A stretch of 41,413 nucleotides of DNA, taken from the NCBI GenBank assembly GCA_003241875.1, contig QBLU01000031.1, positions 1 to 41,413 on the forward strand. Reading direction: 5' to 3'. The DNA comes from Alphaproteobacteria bacterium (GTDB taxonomy: Bacteria > Pseudomonadota > Alphaproteobacteria > Sphingomonadales > Sphingomonadaceae). Under the pieces are notes generated by a model. That model ran no database searches. It saw only the letters and a program-made list of their open reading frames with translations, and was not told where the DNA came from. Positions 4,686 to 33,543 of this stretch are shown here, piece by piece (within the stretch, counting starts at the first letter, position 1; the number at the start of each line of letters is the position of its first letter). The position numbers were made by a program, and so were the translations under genes.

Positions 4686-7933
<3,248 letters not shown>

Positions 7934-7934
<1 letters not shown>

Positions 7935-8290
7935 TATTCTTCGGATCCGGTTTCGGCGGCGCAGCCCCAGCCATCGAACTCGACGCCATGGCTGATCTCG
8001 ATTTGGAGTGCGCGGGTGATGAGTGCTTTCAGGGCGTCGCGCGTGACCGGGCCATCGACCTGCAGGTCCGCTGCCCAGTCGCCATCCTCGAACTCGCCGA
8101 AGTCGATGAAGCGAAAGCCGAGGCCCTGCGCGTCTTCCGCGAGGCTCTCGATATCGTCCTGCGGCCCTTTGAAATGCACGTCGATGGTGCGCGACTGTTC
8201 GGCGATATCGCCATTGGCGGCGAGTGCGAGCAAGACCTCTTCGTTGGCATCAAGTTCGTCGGCCAAACGTTTGGGATCAATGGCGCTCAT
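7934..8290 (-). CDS. RraB-domain protein (regulator of RNase E activity B family)
   Basis: The product is an acidic protein of 118 aa. The C-terminal [13 protein letters not shown] closely matches the EYDGWG signature of RraB, and the body ([20 protein letters not shown], then [16 protein letters not shown]) follows the family's layout. E. coli RraB binds the RNase E degradosome scaffold and modulates mRNA decay; whether this protein does so is unknown. The gene is locked between carA (4-bp ATGA overlap) and carB (1-bp overlap), so it is made with the two CPSase subunits. It is about 20 residues shorter than the E. coli protein, lacking its long acidic tail. The family call rests on motif recognition only. 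Confidence 0.8.
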
Positions 8291-27282: not shown

Positions 27283-28809
27283 ATGACCACCGCCAGCCTC
27301 GACCGAATCCATGACCTGCTGATCATCGGCGGCGGCATCAATGGCGCCGGTATCGCCCGCGACGCCGCGGGCCGCGGGCTCACCGTGGCGCTGGTCGAGG
27401 CCGGCGATCTCGGCGGCGCCACCTCGAGCGCCTCGACGAAGCTGATCCATGGCGGCCTGCGCTATCTCGAATTCTATGCCTTCGGCCTGGTTCGCAAGGC
27501 GCTCGCCGAACGCGAGGTGCTGCTCGACATCGCGCCGCATATCAGCTGGCCGCAAAGCTTTGTCTTGCCCCAGGCCGGCACCCGGCCGGTATGGATGCTG
27601 CGCGCCGGGCTGTGGCTGTACGACAACCTCGCCCGGCGCCGCATCGTGCCTGGCTCGTCGCGTATCGACCTGCGCCGGGATCGTGCCGGCCGGGCGCTCG
27701 ACGCCCGCTACAGCACCGCCTTTCGTTATTGGGACGGTTGGGTCGACGATGCCCGCCTGGTCATCGCCAATTGCCAGGATGCCCGCAATCGCGGCGCGCT
27801 GATCCTGCCGCGCACCCGGGTCACCCGCGCCGAGTATAATGGCAATTCGTGGCAGGTGACGCTCGGCGACGGCCGCAGCTTGCAGGCGCGCCGCATCGTC
27901 AACGCCGCCGGGCCCTGGGCCTCCGAGGTCGCACGCAGCGTGCTCGGCCGCAACGACGCCCCGGCGCTGCGGCTGGTGCAAGGCTCCCACATCGTCACCC
28001 GCCGCGTCCATCTCGGCCGCGACGCCTTCATGTTCCAGCAGCCCGACGGCCGCATCATCTTCGTCATTCCGTATGAGCGCGATTTCTCGCTGATCGGCAC
28101 GACGGAGCGCGACATCGAAGCGCCTGAGGCGGCGCGGATCACCGCCGACGAGACCGATTACCTGCTCGCCGCCGCCAATCGCTATCTGGCGCGGCCGCTG
28201 ACCCATGACGATGTCGTGCACAGCTTTGCCGGCGTCCGCCCGCTGGTGCTCGAGGCCGGCAAGGGAGACCGTGAGACGACGCGCGACTATCGCCTCGTCG
28301 AACACGACGGCGTGCCGGCGATGACCGTCGTCGGCGGCAAGATCACCACCTATCGCGTGCTCGCCGAGGACGTGCTGAAGCGCATCGTCCCCAAATCAAA
28401 GCCGTGGACCCATGCCGCGGCGCTGCCCGGCGGCGATGTCGACAAGCTGCCGGGCGAAACTGGCCAGGAGGCCTTTGGGCGCTGGCTGGGGAGCCTGATC
28501 GCGGCAAACGAGAACTACGATCCCAAGCTGGTCAAGCGGCTGGCGATCACCCTCGGCACGGCGGCGGAACCACTGCTCGCCGCCGGTCTCGGCGCCAACA
28601 TCGGCGGGATCTTCGAGGCTGAACTGCAGCATTATGTCGATGCCGAATGGGCAACCAGCGCCGACGACGTGTTGTGGCGTCGCACCAAGCTGGGCCTGCA
28701 CATCGGCAGCGCCGGCCGCGCCGATATCGCGCGCTGGTTCGGCGAGGCGGCCGGCCCCGCCAGCATCGATACGCCGATCACCCACCGCTTCGCGACCCCG
28801 CCGGCCTGA
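27283..28809 (+). CDS. glpD: Glycerol-3-phosphate dehydrogenase, FAD-dependent
   Basis: The product is 508 aa. The FAD-binding dinucleotide motif LLIIGGGINGAGIARDAAGR is at residues 8-27, followed by GGATSSASTKLIHGGLRYLE, the GlpD/GlpA signature. Further blocks are RIVNAAGPWASEV, SFAGVRPLV and VVGGKITTYR near the end of the catalytic part, then the helical C-terminal cap domain. It oxidises sn-glycerol-3-phosphate to dihydroxyacetone phosphate at the inner face of the membrane and feeds electrons into the quinone pool. It is paired head to head with glpK. A glpR-type repressor is not in the window. Confidence 0.96.
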   Translation: MTTASLDRIHDLLIIGGGINGAGIARDAAGRGLTVALVEAGDLGGATSSASTKLIHGGLRYLEFYAFGLVRKALAEREVLLDIAPHISWPQSFVLPQAGTRPVWMLRAGLWLYDNLARRRIVPGSSRIDLRRDRAGRALDARYSTAFRYWDGWVDDARLVIANCQDARNRGALILPRTRVTRAEYNGNSWQVTLGDGRSLQARRIVNAAGPWASEVARSVLGRNDAPALRLVQGSHIVTRRVHLGRDAFMFQQPDGRIIFVIPYERDFSLIGTTERDIEAPEAARITADETDYLLAAANRYLARPLTHDDVVHSFAGVRPLVLEAGKGDRETTRDYRLVEHDGVPAMTVVGGKITTYRVLAEDVLKRIVPKSKPWTHAAALPGGDVDKLPGETGQEAFGRWLGSLIAANENYDPKLVKRLAITLGTAAEPLLAAGLGANIGGIFEAELQHYVDAEWATSADDVLWRRTKLGLHIGSAGRADIARWFGEAAGPASIDTPITHRFATPPA

Positions 28810-28827
28810 GCCCGAAGCCCGCGACGT

Positions 28828-29796
28828 TCAGCCCGCCTCCGCCAGGCAGGCGGCAAACACCCCCGCCTCGACGTTGCCGCCCGACAGCACCACCAGCACG
28901 GTCTTGCCGGCAAGGTCGATCCGCCCCGCCAGCGCCGCCGCCAGCGCCACCGAACCGCCGGGCTCGACCACCAGCTTCAGTTCGCGAAAGGCAAAGGCGA
29001 CCGCGCGCGCGACTTCGGCCTCGCTGACGACATGGCCAACGGCGCCATGCGAGCGCAGCGTCGCAAATGTCAGCTCCGACATCCGCAACGTCTGCAGCGC
29101 ATCGCAGCGGGTCGGCTGCGGGTCGGTGACCGGCACGATCGCGTCGCCGGCAAGACTGCGGGTGACATCGTCCCAATTCTGCGGCTCGACGGCGGTGACC
29201 GGCAGTTGCGACCCGACGGCAAAGCCGCTGGCCAGGCCGCCGCCGCCACAGCAGACCAGCGCCAGGTCGGCCGCCACGCCCATCGCCGCCAGATCGCTGA
29301 CGGCTTCCAGCCCGGCCGTCCCCTGCCCGGCGATGACGTGGCGATCGTTGAACGGCGGCACGACGACAGCGCCCCGCCCGGCGGCGATCGCCGTCGCGAT
29401 GGCGTCGCGATCCTCGGTCAGCCGGTCGTAGAACACCACCTCGGCGCCATGGCCGCGGGTCCGTTCCACCTTGATCGACGGCGCGTCGCTCGGCATCACG
29501 ATCGTCGCGGGCATGCCGAGCAGCCTTGCCGCCAGCGCCACGCCCTGGGCATGATTTCCCGATGAAAAGGCGACGACTCCCGCACCGCGCTGGTCGGCGG
29601 CGATGGCCGACAGGCGATTGTAGGCGCCGCGAAACTTGAACGAGCCGGTGCGCTGCAGATTCTCGGCCTTCAGCCACACCCGGGCGCCGGTCAGCGCGTC
29701 GAGCGCGTCGCTGCGCACCAACGGGGTTCGCACGGCCACGCCGGCAATTCGGCCCGCCGCTGCAACAACCTCGTCATGGGTTACGCTGGAAGTCAT
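28828..29796 (-). CDS. Threonine/serine dehydratase, PLP-dependent
   Basis: The product is 322 aa with no C-terminal ACT domain, so it resembles catabolic threonine dehydratase or serine racemase. The PLP lysine is Lys54 in GSFKFRGAYN. SSGNHAQGVALAA and CCGGGGLASG are the phosphate-binding loops, and the C-terminal VLSGGNVEAGVF block is typical. It deaminates threonine to 2-oxobutyrate or serine to pyruvate, or interconverts serine isomers. With ilvD at 36.5 kb it could supply isoleucine precursors, but the genes are not linked. The ATG at 29796 has a purine-rich GGGGG stretch upstream and gives the family's normal N-terminus; a longer frame from 29937 would cross the divergent promoter region. 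Confidence 0.9.
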   Translation of the reverse strand: MTSSVTHDEVVAAAGRIAGVAVRTPLVRSDALDALTGARVWLKAENLQRTGSFKFRGAYNRLSAIAADQRGAGVVAFSSGNHAQGVALAARLLGMPATIVMPSDAPSIKVERTRGHGAEVVFYDRLTEDRDAIATAIAAGRGAVVVPPFNDRHVIAGQGTAGLEAVSDLAAMGVAADLALVCCGGGGLASGFAVGSQLPVTAVEPQNWDDVTRSLAGDAIVPVTDPQPTRCDALQTLRMSELTFATLRSHGAVGHVVSEAEVARAVAFAFRELKLVVEPGGSVALAAALAGRIDLAGKTVLVVLSGGNVEAGVFAACLAEAG

Positions 29797-29889
29797 TGAA
29801 AAAGCCCCCTTTCCTGTTCGCGGGAACCTACAGACAAGCTGTTGAAAGGGCAACGAAAAACACTGTTTTTTACGCCAGCGAAAAAACGT

Positions 29890-29918
29890 CTTTACATGGG
29901 GGGTCGGCGACCCTAGAT
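29890..29918 (+). promoter_or_regulatory. Predicted promoter of the decarboxylase gene
   Basis: CTTTAC (29890-29895) and CTAGAT (29913-29918) are exactly 17 bp apart, each one or two bases from the alphaproteobacterial consensus CTTGAC/CTATAT. Transcription would start near 29925, giving a leader of about 85 nt. Confidence 0.6.
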
Positions 29919-29924
29919 ACGCCC

Positions 29925-30001
29925 TCCGCTGCCCCATGGGACTTCCACCGCAAGGCAGCTTTGGTGACGACGCAAGTCGTCACGCTTTGCCCACCCGGAG
30001 G
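29925..30001 (+). promoter_or_regulatory. Structured mRNA leader, candidate speF-type element
   Basis: The leader carries a perfect 8-bp hairpin, GTGACGAC-GCAA-GTCGTCAC (29964-29983), closed by a GNRA tetraloop. An outer GGCA/TGCC pair (29954-29957 with 29988-29991) would enclose it with an internal loop between. A strong GGAGG (29997-30001) follows at once. Rfam lists a speF motif upstream of ornithine decarboxylase genes in alphaproteobacteria. Position and gene match, but I could not compare the consensus, so identity is inferred. Confidence 0.55.
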
Positions 30002-30010
30002 TCCCTTGAA

Positions 30011-31207
30011 TTGCACGAAAACCATAACGCGCTGGGGGTAGCGCTCGGCCAGAAGCCGACCCAACCCGTCACCCTTGTCCGGCCCCACGCCGCGCATCGC
30101 GCTGCCCGTTACTTCCTCGAGAAGTTTCCGGGTACGTCGATGTATGCGGTGAAGGCCAACCCGTCGCCGGACTTGATCCGTGCGCTATGGGATGCCGGCA
30201 TCACGCATTTCGACGTCGCGTCGATCGCCGAGGTGCGCCTGGTGCGTGGCCTGCTGCCGCACGCGACCCTGTGCTTCATGCACCCGGTCAAGGGCCAGGA
30301 AGCCATTGCCGAGGCGTACAAGGTTCATGGCGTCCGCACCTTCAGCCTCGATTCTCTGATCGAACTCGAAAAGATCGTCGAGGCGACCTCTGCTGACGGT
30401 GTCGCCGCGAGCGACTTGACGCTCTGCGTCCGGCTGCGCGTGTCGTCGTCGCATTCCAAGCTCAGCTTGGCGTCGAAGTTCGGCGTCGCGGCCGAGGATT
30501 CGGCACCGCTGCTGATGGCTACCCGTCAGGCGGCCGATGCCCTGGGCATCTGCTTCCACGTCGGTTCGCAGGCAATGAGCCCGCAGGCCTATGCCGAGGC
30601 GCTAGCCCAGGTTCGTGTCGCCATCGTCGCCGCCGGTGTCACCGTCGACGTCGTCGATGTCGGCGGCGGTTTCCCGTCGATCTACCCGGGCATGGAGCCG
30701 TCGGCGCTCGATGGCTATTTCGAGGTCATCCACCGCGCCTATGAAGCGCTGCCGGTGTCCTATTCGGCGGAACTCTGGTGCGAGCCGGGCCGGGCGCTGT
30801 CGGCGGAATATGCCAGCGTCCTCGTCCGCGTCGAGGCGCGCAAGGATGACGTGCTCTACATCAACGACGGCGCCTACGGCTCGTTGTTCGATGCGGCGCA
30901 TGTCGCTTGGCGTTTCCCGGTCGCACTGGTTCGCAACACCGATTCGCGCGCCAAGACGATGGGCTTCAGCTTCTACGGGCCGACCTGCGACGACATGGAT
31001 TTCATGCACGGGCCGTTCGACCTGCCCGCCGATATCCAGGCTGGCGACTATATCGAGGTCGGCATGCTTGGCGCCTATGGCTCGGCAATGCGCACCGGTT
31101 TCAACGGCTTCACCGCCGGCGCGACGGTGATCGCCCGCGACGAGCCGATGGAAACCGCCTATGGTGTCACGGAAGAGTCCGAAGCCAAGGTTATACGACT
31201 CCGCTAG
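30011..31207 (+). CDS. Ornithine/lysine decarboxylase, fold type III PLP enzyme
   Basis: The product is 398 aa when started at TTG 30011, nine bases behind GGAGG. The PLP lysine is in SMYAVKANPSPDLI (Lys48). Other active-site blocks are HFDVASIAEV, FHVGSQAMSP, VVDVGGGFPS, CEPGRALSAEY and GPTCDDMD, whose Cys is the catalytic residue of eukaryotic-type ornithine decarboxylases. It converts ornithine to putrescine, and possibly lysine to cadaverine. The frame is open upstream to ATG 29936, but that lies within the structured leader and has no ribosome site. The deoxyhypusine-synthase-like gene follows 148 bp later on the same strand, implying a polyamine pathway. Confidence 0.92.
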   Translation: MHENHNALGVALGQKPTQPVTLVRPHAAHRAARYFLEKFPGTSMYAVKANPSPDLIRALWDAGITHFDVASIAEVRLVRGLLPHATLCFMHPVKGQEAIAEAYKVHGVRTFSLDSLIELEKIVEATSADGVAASDLTLCVRLRVSSSHSKLSLASKFGVAAEDSAPLLMATRQAADALGICFHVGSQAMSPQAYAEALAQVRVAIVAAGVTVDVVDVGGGFPSIYPGMEPSALDGYFEVIHRAYEALPVSYSAELWCEPGRALSAEYASVLVRVEARKDDVLYINDGAYGSLFDAAHVAWRFPVALVRNTDSRAKTMGFSFYGPTCDDMDFMHGPFDLPADIQAGDYIEVGMLGAYGSAMRTGFNGFTAGATVIARDEPMETAYGVTEESEAKVIRLR

Positions 31208-31247
31208 AACCCTGCCGCGGCCCTGTGCCAAGGCTATTCATCCCCTG

Positions 31248-31266
31248 CCCCGGCTTCGTGCCGGGG
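31248..31266 (+). repeat. Hairpin between the decarboxylase and DHS-like genes
   Basis: A perfect 7-bp stem CCCCGGC/GCCGGGG with loop TTCGT lies 40 bp past the decarboxylase stop. There is no T-run, so it is more likely an mRNA-processing or pause hairpin than a terminator. Confidence 0.45.
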
Positions 31267-31327
31267 TAGCTTACCCGCTCGGCGCCGGAATGATCCGGCC
31301 GCGGGCGACGCTGTTGTCGGCGTCGTG

Positions 31328-31348
31328 CCAGTGACACGCCACTGGAGG
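31328..31348 (+). promoter_or_regulatory. Hairpin masking the Shine-Dalgarno of the DHS-like gene
   Basis: CCAGTG (31328-31333) pairs with CACTGG (31340-31345). The last two bases of the right arm are the first two of GGAGG (31344-31348), the ribosome site seven bases ahead of ATG 31356. Folding would therefore reduce translation. Whether anything controls it is unknown. Confidence 0.4.
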
Positions 31349-31355
31349 CATTCAA

Positions 31356-32405
31356 ATGACCGAACAGATCAACCAGCAGCGCAAGGCCGAGCTGTTGTCC
31401 AAGGTTGTCGAGCACATCGACATCCGCAGCTTCGACGCGCGCCCGATCATCGACGGCATGGCGAACATGAGCTTCACCTCGCGTGATCTCGCCCGCGCCA
31501 CGGCCATCTACAACCAGATGCTGTCGGACCCCGACTGCACCATCTTCCTCGTCATCGCCGGTTCGACCAGCGCCGGCGGCTGCATGGACCTGTATGCCGA
31601 ACTGCTGCGCAACAACATGATCGACGGCATCGTCGCCACCGGCGCCAGCATCGTCGACATGGATTTCTTCGAAGGCCTTGGTCACAAGCACTACCAGGCG
31701 CTCGAAGTGCCCGATGACGACACGCTGCGCTCGCTGCTGATCGACCGCATCTACGACACCTATATCGACGAAGAGCAGCTGCAGGATTGCGACCACACCA
31801 TCCTCGAAATCGCCAACAGCCTGGAGCCCAAGGCCTATTCGAGCCGCGCCTTCATCCGCGAGATGGGCAAGTACCTCGTCGAGCACGGCAAGAAGGACAA
31901 CAGCCTCGTCAAGCTGGCGTACGAGCATGACGTGCCGATCTTCTGCCCGGCGTTCGTTGATTCATCGGCAGGCTTCGGCCTCGTCAAGCACCAGGTCGAT
32001 CGTGCCAAGGAAGGCAAGCCGTACATGGTGCTCGATGCCATCGCCGACTTCCGTGAACTGACCGACATCAAGATCAAGGCCGGCACCACGGGCTTGCTGA
32101 TGATCGGAGGCGGCGTGCCCAAGAACTTCATCCAGGACACCGTCGTCTGTGCCGAAATCCTCGGTCACGATGACGTCCAGGTCCACAAGTACGCCGTGCA
32201 GATCACCGTTGCCGACGTCCGCGATGGCGCCTGCTCGTCCTCGACGCTGCAGGAAGCGGCGAGCTGGGGCAAGGTCAACACCGGCATCGAGCAGATGGTC
32301 TTTGCCGAAGCCGGATCGGTGATGCCGCTGCTCGCCAGCGACGCCTATCACCGCGGCCACTGGAGGGACCGCGCCAAGCGCGCTTGGGGAAAAATGTTCG
32401 CCTGA
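31356..32405 (+). CDS. Deoxyhypusine synthase-like protein, likely homospermidine/polyamine synthase
   Basis: The product is 349 aa, the length of eukaryotic deoxyhypusine synthases. The catalytic lysine is kept: Lys306 in AASWGKVNTG, matching the SWGK motif of DHS. The NAD-site blocks LVIAGSTSAGG, GIVATGASIVDMDFFEGLG, FCPAFVDSSAGFG and LLMIGGGVPKNF are all present. DHS transfers an aminobutyl group from spermidine to eIF5A, which bacteria lack. Next to an ornithine decarboxylase, the protein more probably moves an aminobutyl or related group onto a free amine such as putrescine, giving sym-homospermidine. That step is inference; the family membership is firm. Its 3' end is tandemly duplicated. 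Confidence 0.9.
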   Translation: MTEQINQQRKAELLSKVVEHIDIRSFDARPIIDGMANMSFTSRDLARATAIYNQMLSDPDCTIFLVIAGSTSAGGCMDLYAELLRNNMIDGIVATGASIVDMDFFEGLGHKHYQALEVPDDDTLRSLLIDRIYDTYIDEEQLQDCDHTILEIANSLEPKAYSSRAFIREMGKYLVEHGKKDNSLVKLAYEHDVPIFCPAFVDSSAGFGLVKHQVDRAKEGKPYMVLDAIADFRELTDIKIKAGTTGLLMIGGGVPKNFIQDTVVCAEILGHDDVQVHKYAVQITVADVRDGACSSSTLQEAASWGKVNTGIEQMVFAEAGSVMPLLASDAYHRGHWRDRAKRAWGKMFA

Positions 32406-32469
32406 CGGCGAACACGGGGCAAAATGTTCGCCTGATCGCGAATCGACGGCCAGAGTTCGCCTGAACATT
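32386..32469 (+). repeat. Tandem repeat of the DHS-like gene's 3' end
   Basis: The 30-bp unit at 32386-32415 contains the last codons and the stop. It is copied at 32416-32445 (24 of 30 identical), and a shorter third piece lies at 32454-32469. In unit one GTTCGCC-TGAC-GGCGAAC (32396-32413) forms a perfect 7-bp hairpin with part of the stop codon in its loop. The AAATGTTC of unit two could pair with the GAACATTT of the third piece. Confidence 0.7.
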
Positions 32470-32493
32470 TGACACTTTCGCAAGGAACTCCGA

Positions 32494-32522
32494 CCCTCCG
32501 TGGCAACACGGGGGGTCTTTTT
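32494..32522 (+). terminator. Intrinsic terminator after the DHS-like gene
   Basis: The stem CCCTCCGTG/CACGGGGGG (32494-32502 with 32507-32515, one T-G pair) has a GCAA tetraloop and is followed by TCTTTTT. It is a strong classical terminator. The ATG of the next gene begins two bases after it, and the G-run of the right arm is also that gene's best ribosome site. Confidence 0.85.
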
Positions 32523-32523
32523 C

Positions 32524-32955
32524 ATGCACAGTCCGATACTCGCGCCGGTGGTGGCACTCGTCGCCTGGACGCTGGTCATGCTGGTCTGGGCCATCGCCGT
32601 TCGCATCCCCGAATTCGGCAAGGCCGGGATCGACATCAATTCGGTCCGCGGCGGGAAGCCCGGCGGCCTCGACGGCATTCTCCCCGACCAGGCGCAGTGG
32701 AAGATGCACAACTACATCCACCTGACCGAACAGCCGGTACTGTTCTATGCCATCTGCGGCGTGCTGGCGGTGACCGGGACCGGCGGCGGCTTCAATGCCA
32801 TCCTCGCTTGGTCCTATGTCGGGTTGCGCGTCGTTCACAGCTTCGTCCAATCGACGAGCAACATCATCAAGCTGCGCTTTGCCCTGTTCGCCCTCAGCAC
32901 GCTCGCACTAATGGCGCTGACCCTTCACGCCGCGTTGGCTCTGGCCTGGCATTGA
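32524..32955 (+). CDS. MAPEG-family membrane protein
   Basis: The product is 143 aa with four predicted membrane helices. It resembles the bacterial MAPEG family in the loop after helix 1 (KMHNYIHLTEQPVLFYAICG) and the RVVHSFVQSTSNIIKLRFAL segment, where family members carry an R-x-x-H...N pattern. Eukaryotic relatives include microsomal glutathione transferases and leukotriene C4 synthase; the bacterial proteins are mostly uncharacterised. ATG 32524 has GGGGGG eight bases upstream. A GTG at 32500 would add eight residues but lies inside the terminator stem. It converges with the next gene with stop codons adjacent. Confidence 0.8.
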   Translation: MHSPILAPVVALVAWTLVMLVWAIAVRIPEFGKAGIDINSVRGGKPGGLDGILPDQAQWKMHNYIHLTEQPVLFYAICGVLAVTGTGGGFNAILAWSYVGLRVVHSFVQSTSNIIKLRFALFALSTLALMALTLHAALALAWH

Positions 32956-33543
32956 TCAGCATTTCTCGTACTTCCAGTTGAGCTTCTTGCCGTCCGCCGC
33001 CTGTGCCACCGTTGTCTCGATGCGCCTGGCACGGGTCGCCGGCTGTTTCGCGCCCAGCACCCATTCGACATAGTCGCGCCGGGCCCCTGGCGGAAAACCG
33101 GCGAACGTCGCGGCCGCAGCCGGCTCCGCAGCCAGAGCCACAGCCAGGTCGTCGGGAATTGCGGCCTCGCCTTTTGGCGCCGCAGCCGGCCGTTGGCGTG
33201 CCGGGCGACCGGCCTCGGCCAGTGCCGCCGCGCTGTGTAGCCGCTCCACCAGCAGCACGTCGCCGGGCAGATCGCTGACCGACGCCAGCTTGCCGAACTG
33301 CCCCATGCCATCGCCGGTCGCCATCGCCGTGCCGTCAAAGATGCCGAGGCCGGCGTGCGCCTTGAACGCGGCCATCATCGCAACGTCGCGGCCGTTGAGC
33401 TGAAAGAACGGCATGCCCCACTTCACCGTTTCGGTCGCCGCCGGAAGCGTCGTGTGTACGAGGCCCCGGATATGGCCGAGGATCGCTTGGGCAAAGGGCA
33501 GCGCCTTGTCGATATAGGCGGTGACGCGCGGATCCCGAGGCAT
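32956..33543 (-). CDS. YdeI/OmpD-associated-family protein with DUF1801-like domain
   Basis: The product is 195 aa. The N-terminal half (DPRVTAYIDKALPFAQAILG, then ETVKWGMPFFQLNGR) is a DUF1801/YdhG-like domain. The C-terminal tail FAGFPPGARRDYVEWVLGAK plus ARRIETTVAQAADGKKLNWK is the OmdA-like helical block. Function is not established; similar proteins are widespread in soil and plant-associated bacteria. The ATG at 33543 has GGGAGG nine bases upstream and gives the usual short N-terminus; the frame is open further up to 33825 but that lies over the next gene. Confidence 0.82.
   Translation of the reverse strand: MPRDPRVTAYIDKALPFAQAILGHIRGLVHTTLPAATETVKWGMPFFQLNGRDVAMMAAFKAHAGLGIFDGTAMATGDGMGQFGKLASVSDLPGDVLLVERLHSAAALAEAGRPARQRPAAAPKGEAAIPDDLAVALAAEPAAAATFAGFPPGARRDYVEWVLGAKQPATRARRIETTVAQAADGKKLNWKYEKC

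Follow-up and report, generated by a model that had tools for sequence, protein, structure and literature searches.

Relatives of deoxyhypusine synthase (DHS) that make homospermidine are already known (PMC10981699, PMC9992855). For example, knock-out of the DHS-like enzyme CdmS in Thermus has been reported to abolish homospermidine (PMC10981699). The decarboxylases of Pelagibacter and Fonsibacter, which are derived from ornithine decarboxylase (ODC) and belong to DHS/SpeY clusters, have been reported to be active on arginine only (PMC9992855). For Zymomonas, a route from arginine through agmatine and putrescine to homospermidine has been proposed with ZMO1020, ZMO1369, ZMO1370 and ZMO1019 (PMC8594446). 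In this study, we analysed a stretch of 41,413 nucleotides (contig QBLU01000031.1; hereafter the window) from an alphaproteobacterium of the family Sphingomonadaceae, in which a decarboxylase gene (gene 1) is followed by a gene for a DHS-like protein (gene 2). We consider it rather probable that the best explanation of the locus as a whole is an arginine-fed homospermidine operon under leader-RNA control. The genes, their families, the gene content of genomes, the partner swaps and the conservation and pairing of the leader are computational results; the substrates, the product, the direction of regulation and the ligand are our reading of them. The idea of a homospermidine route is not new, given the Zymomonas proposal, the known DHS-type enzymes and a named NCBIfam family. 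What appears new is that the DHS-like gene and a carboxyspermidine dehydrogenase gene replace each other near the same decarboxylase, and the conserved leader RNA before this decarboxylase is apparently undescribed.

The Zymomonas mobilis pair ZMO1020-ZMO1019 resembles the window in joining a decarboxylase to a DHS-like protein in a proposed homospermidine route, but the accessible parts of that report mention neither a leader RNA nor an alternation with carboxyspermidine genes (PMC8594446). The Zymomonas genome in our set (L146) has the decarboxylase/DHS pair together with the leader. A SAR11-like genome (L091; 1.21 Mb; GC 0.29 in the fetched region) carries three consecutive genes, for a decarboxylase, a DHS-like protein and an agmatinase-type protein, as in the Pelagibacter/Fonsibacter type of cluster; its decarboxylase has 394 aa from the first Met and contains an LFDA motif. 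A Pelagibacter decarboxylase of 394 aa from such a cluster was assayed as arginine-only (PMC9992855); the two were compared by length and cluster and are not equated. L091 differs from the window in its enzyme (approximately 41% identical), its adjacent ureohydrolase and the lack of a match to our leader model R1. Among known RNAs, the speF leader (RF00518) likewise stands before a polyamine decarboxylase, the alphaproteobacterial ornithine decarboxylase, whereas Rfam gives no match on the window leader. The SAM-II class riboswitch, which we take to be an H-type pseudoknot whose 3' strand holds the Shine-Dalgarno sequence, presumably works in the same mode, but the window leader stands before a different gene and, as said, is without an Rfam match.

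The two genes of the window lie as follows.

30011..31207, forward strand: decarboxylase of the alanine-racemase fold, probably an arginine decarboxylase, 398 aa, TTG start

31356..32405, forward strand: DHS-like protein, member of NCBIfam NF002699, 349 aa, with Lys306

The Gene Pair and the DHS-like Protein

A sequence-only reading, made by a model without database searches, had described here a decarboxylase followed by a full-length DHS homolog, and both were found in place. The DHS-like protein matches PF01916 over residues 31-328 with 291 bits, and the catalytic Lys306 was confirmed in an SWGK motif that aligns with solved DHS enzymes. The co-occurrence of the two genes, which that reading had suggested checking, is also seen. 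In all 16 regions from the order, a decarboxylase homolog is found no more than 2 kb from the DHS-like gene; it is adjacent in 14 (one of them a fragment at a contig end) and 1.2 to 1.8 kb downstream in L062 and L065. Of the 10 regions from other parts of the class, 8 have the two genes side by side. Because the order and class regions so regularly have both genes, the pairing is not due to chance.

The DHS-like protein scores 554.1 bits against the NF002699 model, over the curated cut-off of 500. It stays below the cut-offs of the true-DHS model TIGR00321 (201.4 of 304.25 bits) and of PRK00770 (160.4 of 450 bits), a homospermidine biosynthesis protein model that we take to be cyanobacterial SpeY. 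NF002699 matches 7 of 14 control genomes, Thermus composti included, and 3 of them are over the cut-off. Residues were counted in 89 distinct full-length DHS-like homologs. Lys306, Glu300, Trp304, His277, Asp202 and Asp290 are invariant, and the positions of the spermidine-binding human Asp243 and Asp316 hold Phe and Cys, respectively, each in 88/89 homologs; in the window protein these are Phe207 and Cys293. CdmS has also been reported to be without these two acids (PMC10981699). Thus, the window protein resembles CdmS in passing the family cut-off, in the Lys and Glu, in the Phe at the Asp243 position and in a non-acid at the Asp316 position, but it has Cys there, whereas CdmS has Leu. The system differs as well, in that the window pair has no adjacent ureohydrolase and a deiminase/amidase pair is found elsewhere in the genome.

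These comparisons favour a DHS homolog of the homospermidine-making kind over a true DHS. The family match and the catalytic lysine would also suit an enzyme that modifies a protein, as a true deoxyhypusine synthase or on an EF-P-like target, but such a function is very improbable: the score is below the cut-off of the true-DHS model, the two substrate acids of the human enzyme are replaced in nearly all homologs, and the gene alternates with a spermidine pathway. PF16653 (saccharopine-dehydrogenase-type), presumably the domain of the classical bacterial homospermidine synthase, has no match in the window's genome (G000), so there is no sign of that enzyme, in line with the earlier suggestion of a route different from the classical one. 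A DHS-like gene with 591.8 bits against NF002699 also lies on a Trichormus variabilis plasmid (L111:5995-7038), between rocD and iron transport genes.

The Substrate of the Decarboxylase

The decarboxylase matches Orn_Arg_deC_N (123 bits) and Orn_DAP_Arg_deC (37 bits), the barrel and sheet domains, and the closest named decarboxylases among the matches listed are those of alphaproteobacterium AAP81b and Sandarakinorhabdus. It was listed as an open reading frame (ORF) at 29936-31207 on the forward strand, and very probably starts at TTG 30011 and not at ATG 29936, which is disfavoured because it lies inside the leader RNA. In Sphingomonas parapaucimobilis, the annotated start is the corresponding TTG.

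An aspartate of the specificity helix, in the YDHW motif of the S. ruminantium enzyme, has a role in ornithine/lysine binding. Its position is Val in the window decarboxylase and V, I, L, P or F, never Asp, in 17/17 aligned rows; in a further alignment, the S. ruminantium and Vibrio rows have the aspartate. An Asp-Ala just upstream of this position is found in all 17 rows, as LFDA in 14. The label of ornithine/lysine decarboxylase given by the sequence-only reading is therefore not supported, and arginine is the likely substrate. Gene content points the same way in our sample of 26 Sphingomonadaceae genomes. No SpeA (E 1e-20) and no PF01276 match over the cut-off was found in any of the 26, whereas agmatine deiminase (PF04371) and N-carbamoylputrescine amidase (NCPAH, over the cut-off) are present in all; therefore, agmatine most likely comes from gene 1, although this test leaves SpeD-derived and other pyruvoyl enzymes possible, as no PF01862 search was made. 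In the window's genome, the deiminase and amidase genes are adjacent (C14:5215-7178) and away from the locus. The motif, neighbours and gene content of the window decarboxylase agree with the SAR11-type arginine decarboxylases derived from ODC, and we believe that gene 1 probably encodes an arginine decarboxylase.

Could gene 1 instead act on ornithine/lysine, with putrescine (or cadaverine) formed in one step and then coupled by gene 2? Among solved structures, the closest to it are lysine/ornithine decarboxylases (5gjm, E 6e-43), and it has the conserved active-site Cys-Asp motif GPTCD. Against this stand the replaced substrate aspartate, the agmatine-processing genes in 26/26 family genomes, in all of which SpeA- and PF01276-type enzymes were looked for and not found, and the related arginine-only enzymes of Pelagibacter and Fonsibacter (PMC9992855), so we regard this alternative as unlikely.

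Some observations speak against arginine as the substrate or complicate it. S. meliloti Odc2, annotated as an ornithine/lysine decarboxylase, has Glu at the aspartate position, so the residue test is not absolute. The agmatine deiminase of the window's genome is below the TIGR03380 cut-off (233 of 381.8). SpeD homologs occur in 3/26 family genomes, the window's included, where spermidine may also be made or a second arginine decarboxylase may be present. The SpeD homolog of the window's genome is an adenosylmethionine decarboxylase homolog with 119.7 bits against TIGR03330, over the cut-off (L230:5615-6169, forward strand, G000:C56). The ORF after it (6233-8047) is of the dihydroxy-acid dehydratase type and not a spermidine synthase. 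It has been reported that SpeD relatives can be arginine decarboxylases (PMC10407285), and this homolog could be such a SpeD-derived decarboxylase.

A Probable Route from Arginine to Homospermidine

With arginine as the substrate, gene 1 would form agmatine, the agmatine deiminase and N-carbamoylputrescine amidase encoded elsewhere would convert agmatine to putrescine, and the NAD-dependent product of gene 2 would pass an aminobutyl unit, held as an imine on Lys306, to a second molecule to give sym-homospermidine. The sequence-only reading had proposed a route from the decarboxylase to homospermidine with two enzymes. The family of the DHS homolog (NF002699) supports the direction of this proposal, but since arginine is the likely substrate and the deiminase and amidase lie elsewhere in the genome, it would not be a two-enzyme route.

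We slightly favour putrescine over agmatine as the coupled molecule in Sphingomonadaceae. The alternative that gene 2 is of the CdmS type and couples agmatine is a real, if lesser, possibility. NF002699 bears a CdmS-type name and its cut-off is passed. The acids at 139 and 146 do not vary among the 89 homologs and are spaced like CdmS Glu136/Asp143, a correspondence inferred from spacing (PMC10981699). A ureohydrolase gene adjoins the DHS-like gene in 6/16 order regions (L052-L057) and in 6/10 class regions, the SAR11-like L091 included, and both ureohydrolases examined pass the agmatinase cut-off. However, an adjacent ureohydrolase is found in 0/7 regions from the window's own family, and not one ureohydrolase match was obtained in 9 of the 12 family genomes with a DHS-like gene, so coupling of agmatine would require a deiminase and an amidase that also act on the product of the coupling. 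In addition, free putrescine has been reported in 4/5 Sphingomonas species, at 6 to 41%.

Other points count against a homospermidine route by way of putrescine. The Phe at the Asp243 position and the loss of Asp316 are as in the agmatine-coupling CdmS (PMC10981699). In SAR11, little homospermidine has been reported, and the DHS homolog was doubted as mainly a homospermidine synthase (PMC8437039). The activities of the proteins studied here are predictions from their sequences. On contig C111 of the window's genome we also found three ORFs of approximately 500 aa (L047:3952-5463, L048:4363-5850 and L048:5817-7316, all on the reverse strand) with agmatinase/formimidoylglutamase-like domains, all below the curated cut-offs, and with N-terminal extensions.

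Exchange of the Partner Gene

The 26 family genomes fall into two groups without overlap, 12 with the DHS-like gene and 14 with a strong PF16653 protein, which scores 146 bits or more. A DHS-type genome, G053, has a weak PF16653 protein (67 bits). The strong protein tested, that of G005, scores 434 bits against the carboxynorspermidine synthase model, below the cut-off of 800, and its neighbour reaches 377 of 409 for nspC and has no Pfam family. We read such a pair as carboxyspermidine dehydrogenase (CASDH) and carboxyspermidine decarboxylase (CASDC), as judged from these model scores.

The same exchange is seen at the decarboxylase itself. Among the best 80 of 585 confirmed matches to the decarboxylase alignment (the named loci), 53 have the DHS-like gene, 19 have CASDH with CASDC, 1 has CASDC only, 7 have neither and 0 have both. 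Five of the seven loci with neither have little flanking DNA on a side. The other two, L131 and L141, have full flanks, with the decarboxylase and leader but no DHS-like or CASDH gene within 8 kb. Within the named loci, the CASDH type comprises 6/6 Sphingobium, 6/7 Sphingopyxis (the seventh with CASDC only), Rhizorhapis, 1/2 Novosphingobium (the other on a 3.7-kb contig) and 5 Sphingomonas loci; most Sphingomonas loci are of the DHS type, as are the Sandarakinorhabdus, three Sphingosinicella and Zymomonas loci. In a quick tree of 99 decarboxylases and two outgroups, supported by SH-aLRT only and with the partial locus L138 counted as DHS, at least 5 partner changes are needed, and 3 of them are forced by well-supported branches. 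A limit to the exchange is given by G015, G048, G054 and G082, from other families, in which DHS and a strong PF16653 protein co-occur, so the exclusion is not universal.

Homospermidine has been reported to be the dominant polyamine in most Sphingomonas or in individual species, and spermidine has been reported in Novosphingobium. Spermidine is also found in Sphingobium and Sphingopyxis. The partner swap is fitting for this chemotaxonomic split, a link drawn at the genus level because no species with polyamine data is in the locus set by name. Sphingomonas cavernae is a CASDH-type species. S. yantingensis (L155) is likewise of the CASDH type, inside a mainly DHS-type clade, and a 2017 report by Feng et al. 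is said, by its title, to deal with a spermidine-containing Sphingomonas and an emended S. yantingensis.

Structure and Conservation of the Leader RNA

The leader before gene 1 has the following parts.

29928-29933 (GCUGCC) with 29954-29959 (GGCAGC), forward strand: helix P1

29934-29937 (CCAU) and 29947-29953 (ACCGCAA), forward strand: conserved loops of P1

29938-29946 (GGGACUUCC) with 29997-30005 (GGAGGUCCC), forward strand: helix P2, which covers GGAGG at 29997-30001

29964-29971 with 29976-29983, forward strand: hairpin with a GCAA loop, within the variable stretch

In order, the leader reads GCUGCC-CCAU-GGGACUUCC-(short A-rich stretch)ACCGCAA-GGCAGC, a variable stretch, and GGAGGUCCC-UUGAAUUG. 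GGAGG is the Shine-Dalgarno sequence, nine bases before TTG 30011. P1 and P2 interleave, so that nearly all leaders can fold into an H-type pseudoknot in which P2 pairs the ribosome-binding site.

All six pairs of P1 are present in 77/77 distinct leaders, and P2 is complete in 76/77. With divergent leaders included, P1 is full in 84/85 and P2 in 81/85; these 85 were parsed out of 92 distinct leaders, and the counts do not include G071, G091 and five leaders whose inserts are long. Across 63 leaders that are less than 93% alike, there are 34 invariant columns, some of which are broken in G053, G068, G071 and G091. As a yardstick, the third base is invariant in 0/51 invariant Ala, Val, Pro, Gly and Thr codons of gene 1 (105 loci, a set that overlaps the leader set and is not identical to it). 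The leaders were gathered by patterns that fix part of both strands. A second look found the core and Shine-Dalgarno pattern in 79/79 named loci with enough upstream DNA, so no named leader was lost to the patterns, and the set consists of the best-scoring relatives. P2 is part of the minimum-energy fold of the window leader, with a z of -3.47, and three other leaders gave -1.85 to -2.05.

Several results weaken the case for a paired structure. P1 looks partly broken in G071, by eye, and a few leaders are missing between one and three of the inner P2 pairs. The pair-count test on a 41-row alignment (A3) found no pair changed on both sides; A3 holds 41 of the 63 leaders of alignment A2, leaving out those with an extra G, those with a shortened P2 and some others. 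The two-sided changes in P1 (A-U in place of U-A in L140 and L153, U-A in place of C-G in G053) lie in rows outside A3 or were found later. Because P2 hardly varies, covariation support is real but thin.

A leader peptide was considered and rejected: the segment from CUUCC to ACCG varies in length by 1 base or more, which would put a reading frame out of register, and some leaders lack the ATG. In the Sandarakinorhabdus-type leaders L118, L119, L120, L123 and L172, the 3' strand of P1 is separated from that of P2 by a long insert, which extends the element to approximately 142 bases.

Distribution and Possible Role of the Leader RNA

With the leader model R1, a single copy was detected in every one of the 26 family genomes (weakly in G091, 28.7 bits), and gene 1 is directly downstream in 26/26. 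Among the 73 other genomes of the order, there was 1 weak match (22 bits), and its 3.5-kb region contains no decarboxylase. The scan of 190 genomes of the class gave the three family members among them and one weak match (24 bits), with no decarboxylase recognised by eye in 3 kb. The filters of these order and class scans were stricter, and weak matches can be lost. In Rfam 15, no family matches positions 28800-33000 of the window up to E 1, or the leaders L106, L118, L126, L145 and L146; as a positive control, RF00518 was found on the S. meliloti odc2 leader (L113) with 135 bits. In the literature, no description of the leader was found by title or abstract start, in a search that subscription papers were largely outside of.

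When the pseudoknot is formed, GGAGG would be paired and gene 1 would not be translated; 148 bases separate gene 1 from the start of gene 2. Translation of the first committed enzyme could thereby be shut off, and we infer a feedback by a polyamine or its precursor; a ligand, if any, must serve both locus types. Tentatively, the leader may represent a new riboswitch class confined to Sphingomonadaceae, which would sense a polyamine or precursor (homospermidine/spermidine, agmatine or arginine), block translation of arginine decarboxylase, and have been kept while two unrelated triamine synthases were swapped. To the alternative that it is a target of a protein or small RNA, or just a strong structured ribosome-binding site, we give an even chance. 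The near-invariance of P2 and the weak covariation suit this alternative; on the other hand, an initiation site would need neither such highly conserved loops (ACCGCAA and CCAU-type) nor P1, a second helix in which both sides of a pair have changed.

In Zymomonas, the decarboxylase protein has been reported to fall 64-fold on an ammonium downshift, while its operon partner showed no significant change in dynamic ammonium shifts (PMC8594446). Control specific to gene 1 would predict such a drop, which proteolysis would also explain.

Other Features of the Locus

Three further features frame the pair.

29891..29919, forward strand: promoter-like TTTACA, 17 nt, TAGATA, upstream of the leader, read from the sequence

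32492..32517, forward strand: terminator-like hairpin followed by a T run, end of the unit

28828..29937, reverse strand: divergent PALP gene, pyridoxal phosphate (PLP)-dependent, true start probably downstream of the listed ORF start

The unit from the promoter-like site to the terminator agrees with the span of 29890-32522 drawn by the sequence-only reading. TTTACA and TAT-rich boxes of a similar kind were seen by eye before many listed leaders; a consensus scan found no promoter, and the box at 29891..29919 is a lead only. In the region, 3 terminator-like hairpins were found where shuffles gave 2.4 expected, and the plausibility of the one at 32492..32517 rests on its position. A match to the divergent PALP gene of the window is present at 63/80 named loci of both locus types, including 12/19 CASDH loci (matches only). 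Between the two genes of the pair lies a GC-rich inverted repeat without a T run (31248-31266, CCCCGGC-TTCGT-GCCGGGG), which may be an intergenic repeat or a processing site. The next ORF downstream (32500-32955) is of the MAPEG family and probably starts later than listed, because the GTG given as its start falls within the terminator-like hairpin.

Implications

The leader would add a new element to the regulation of polyamine synthesis, present as a single copy and conserved enough for ligand tests. Homospermidine versus spermidine is a chemotaxonomic marker in sphingomonad taxonomy, and this marker maps on one locus. The polyamine type could thus be predicted from the genome, and the swap is directly testable.

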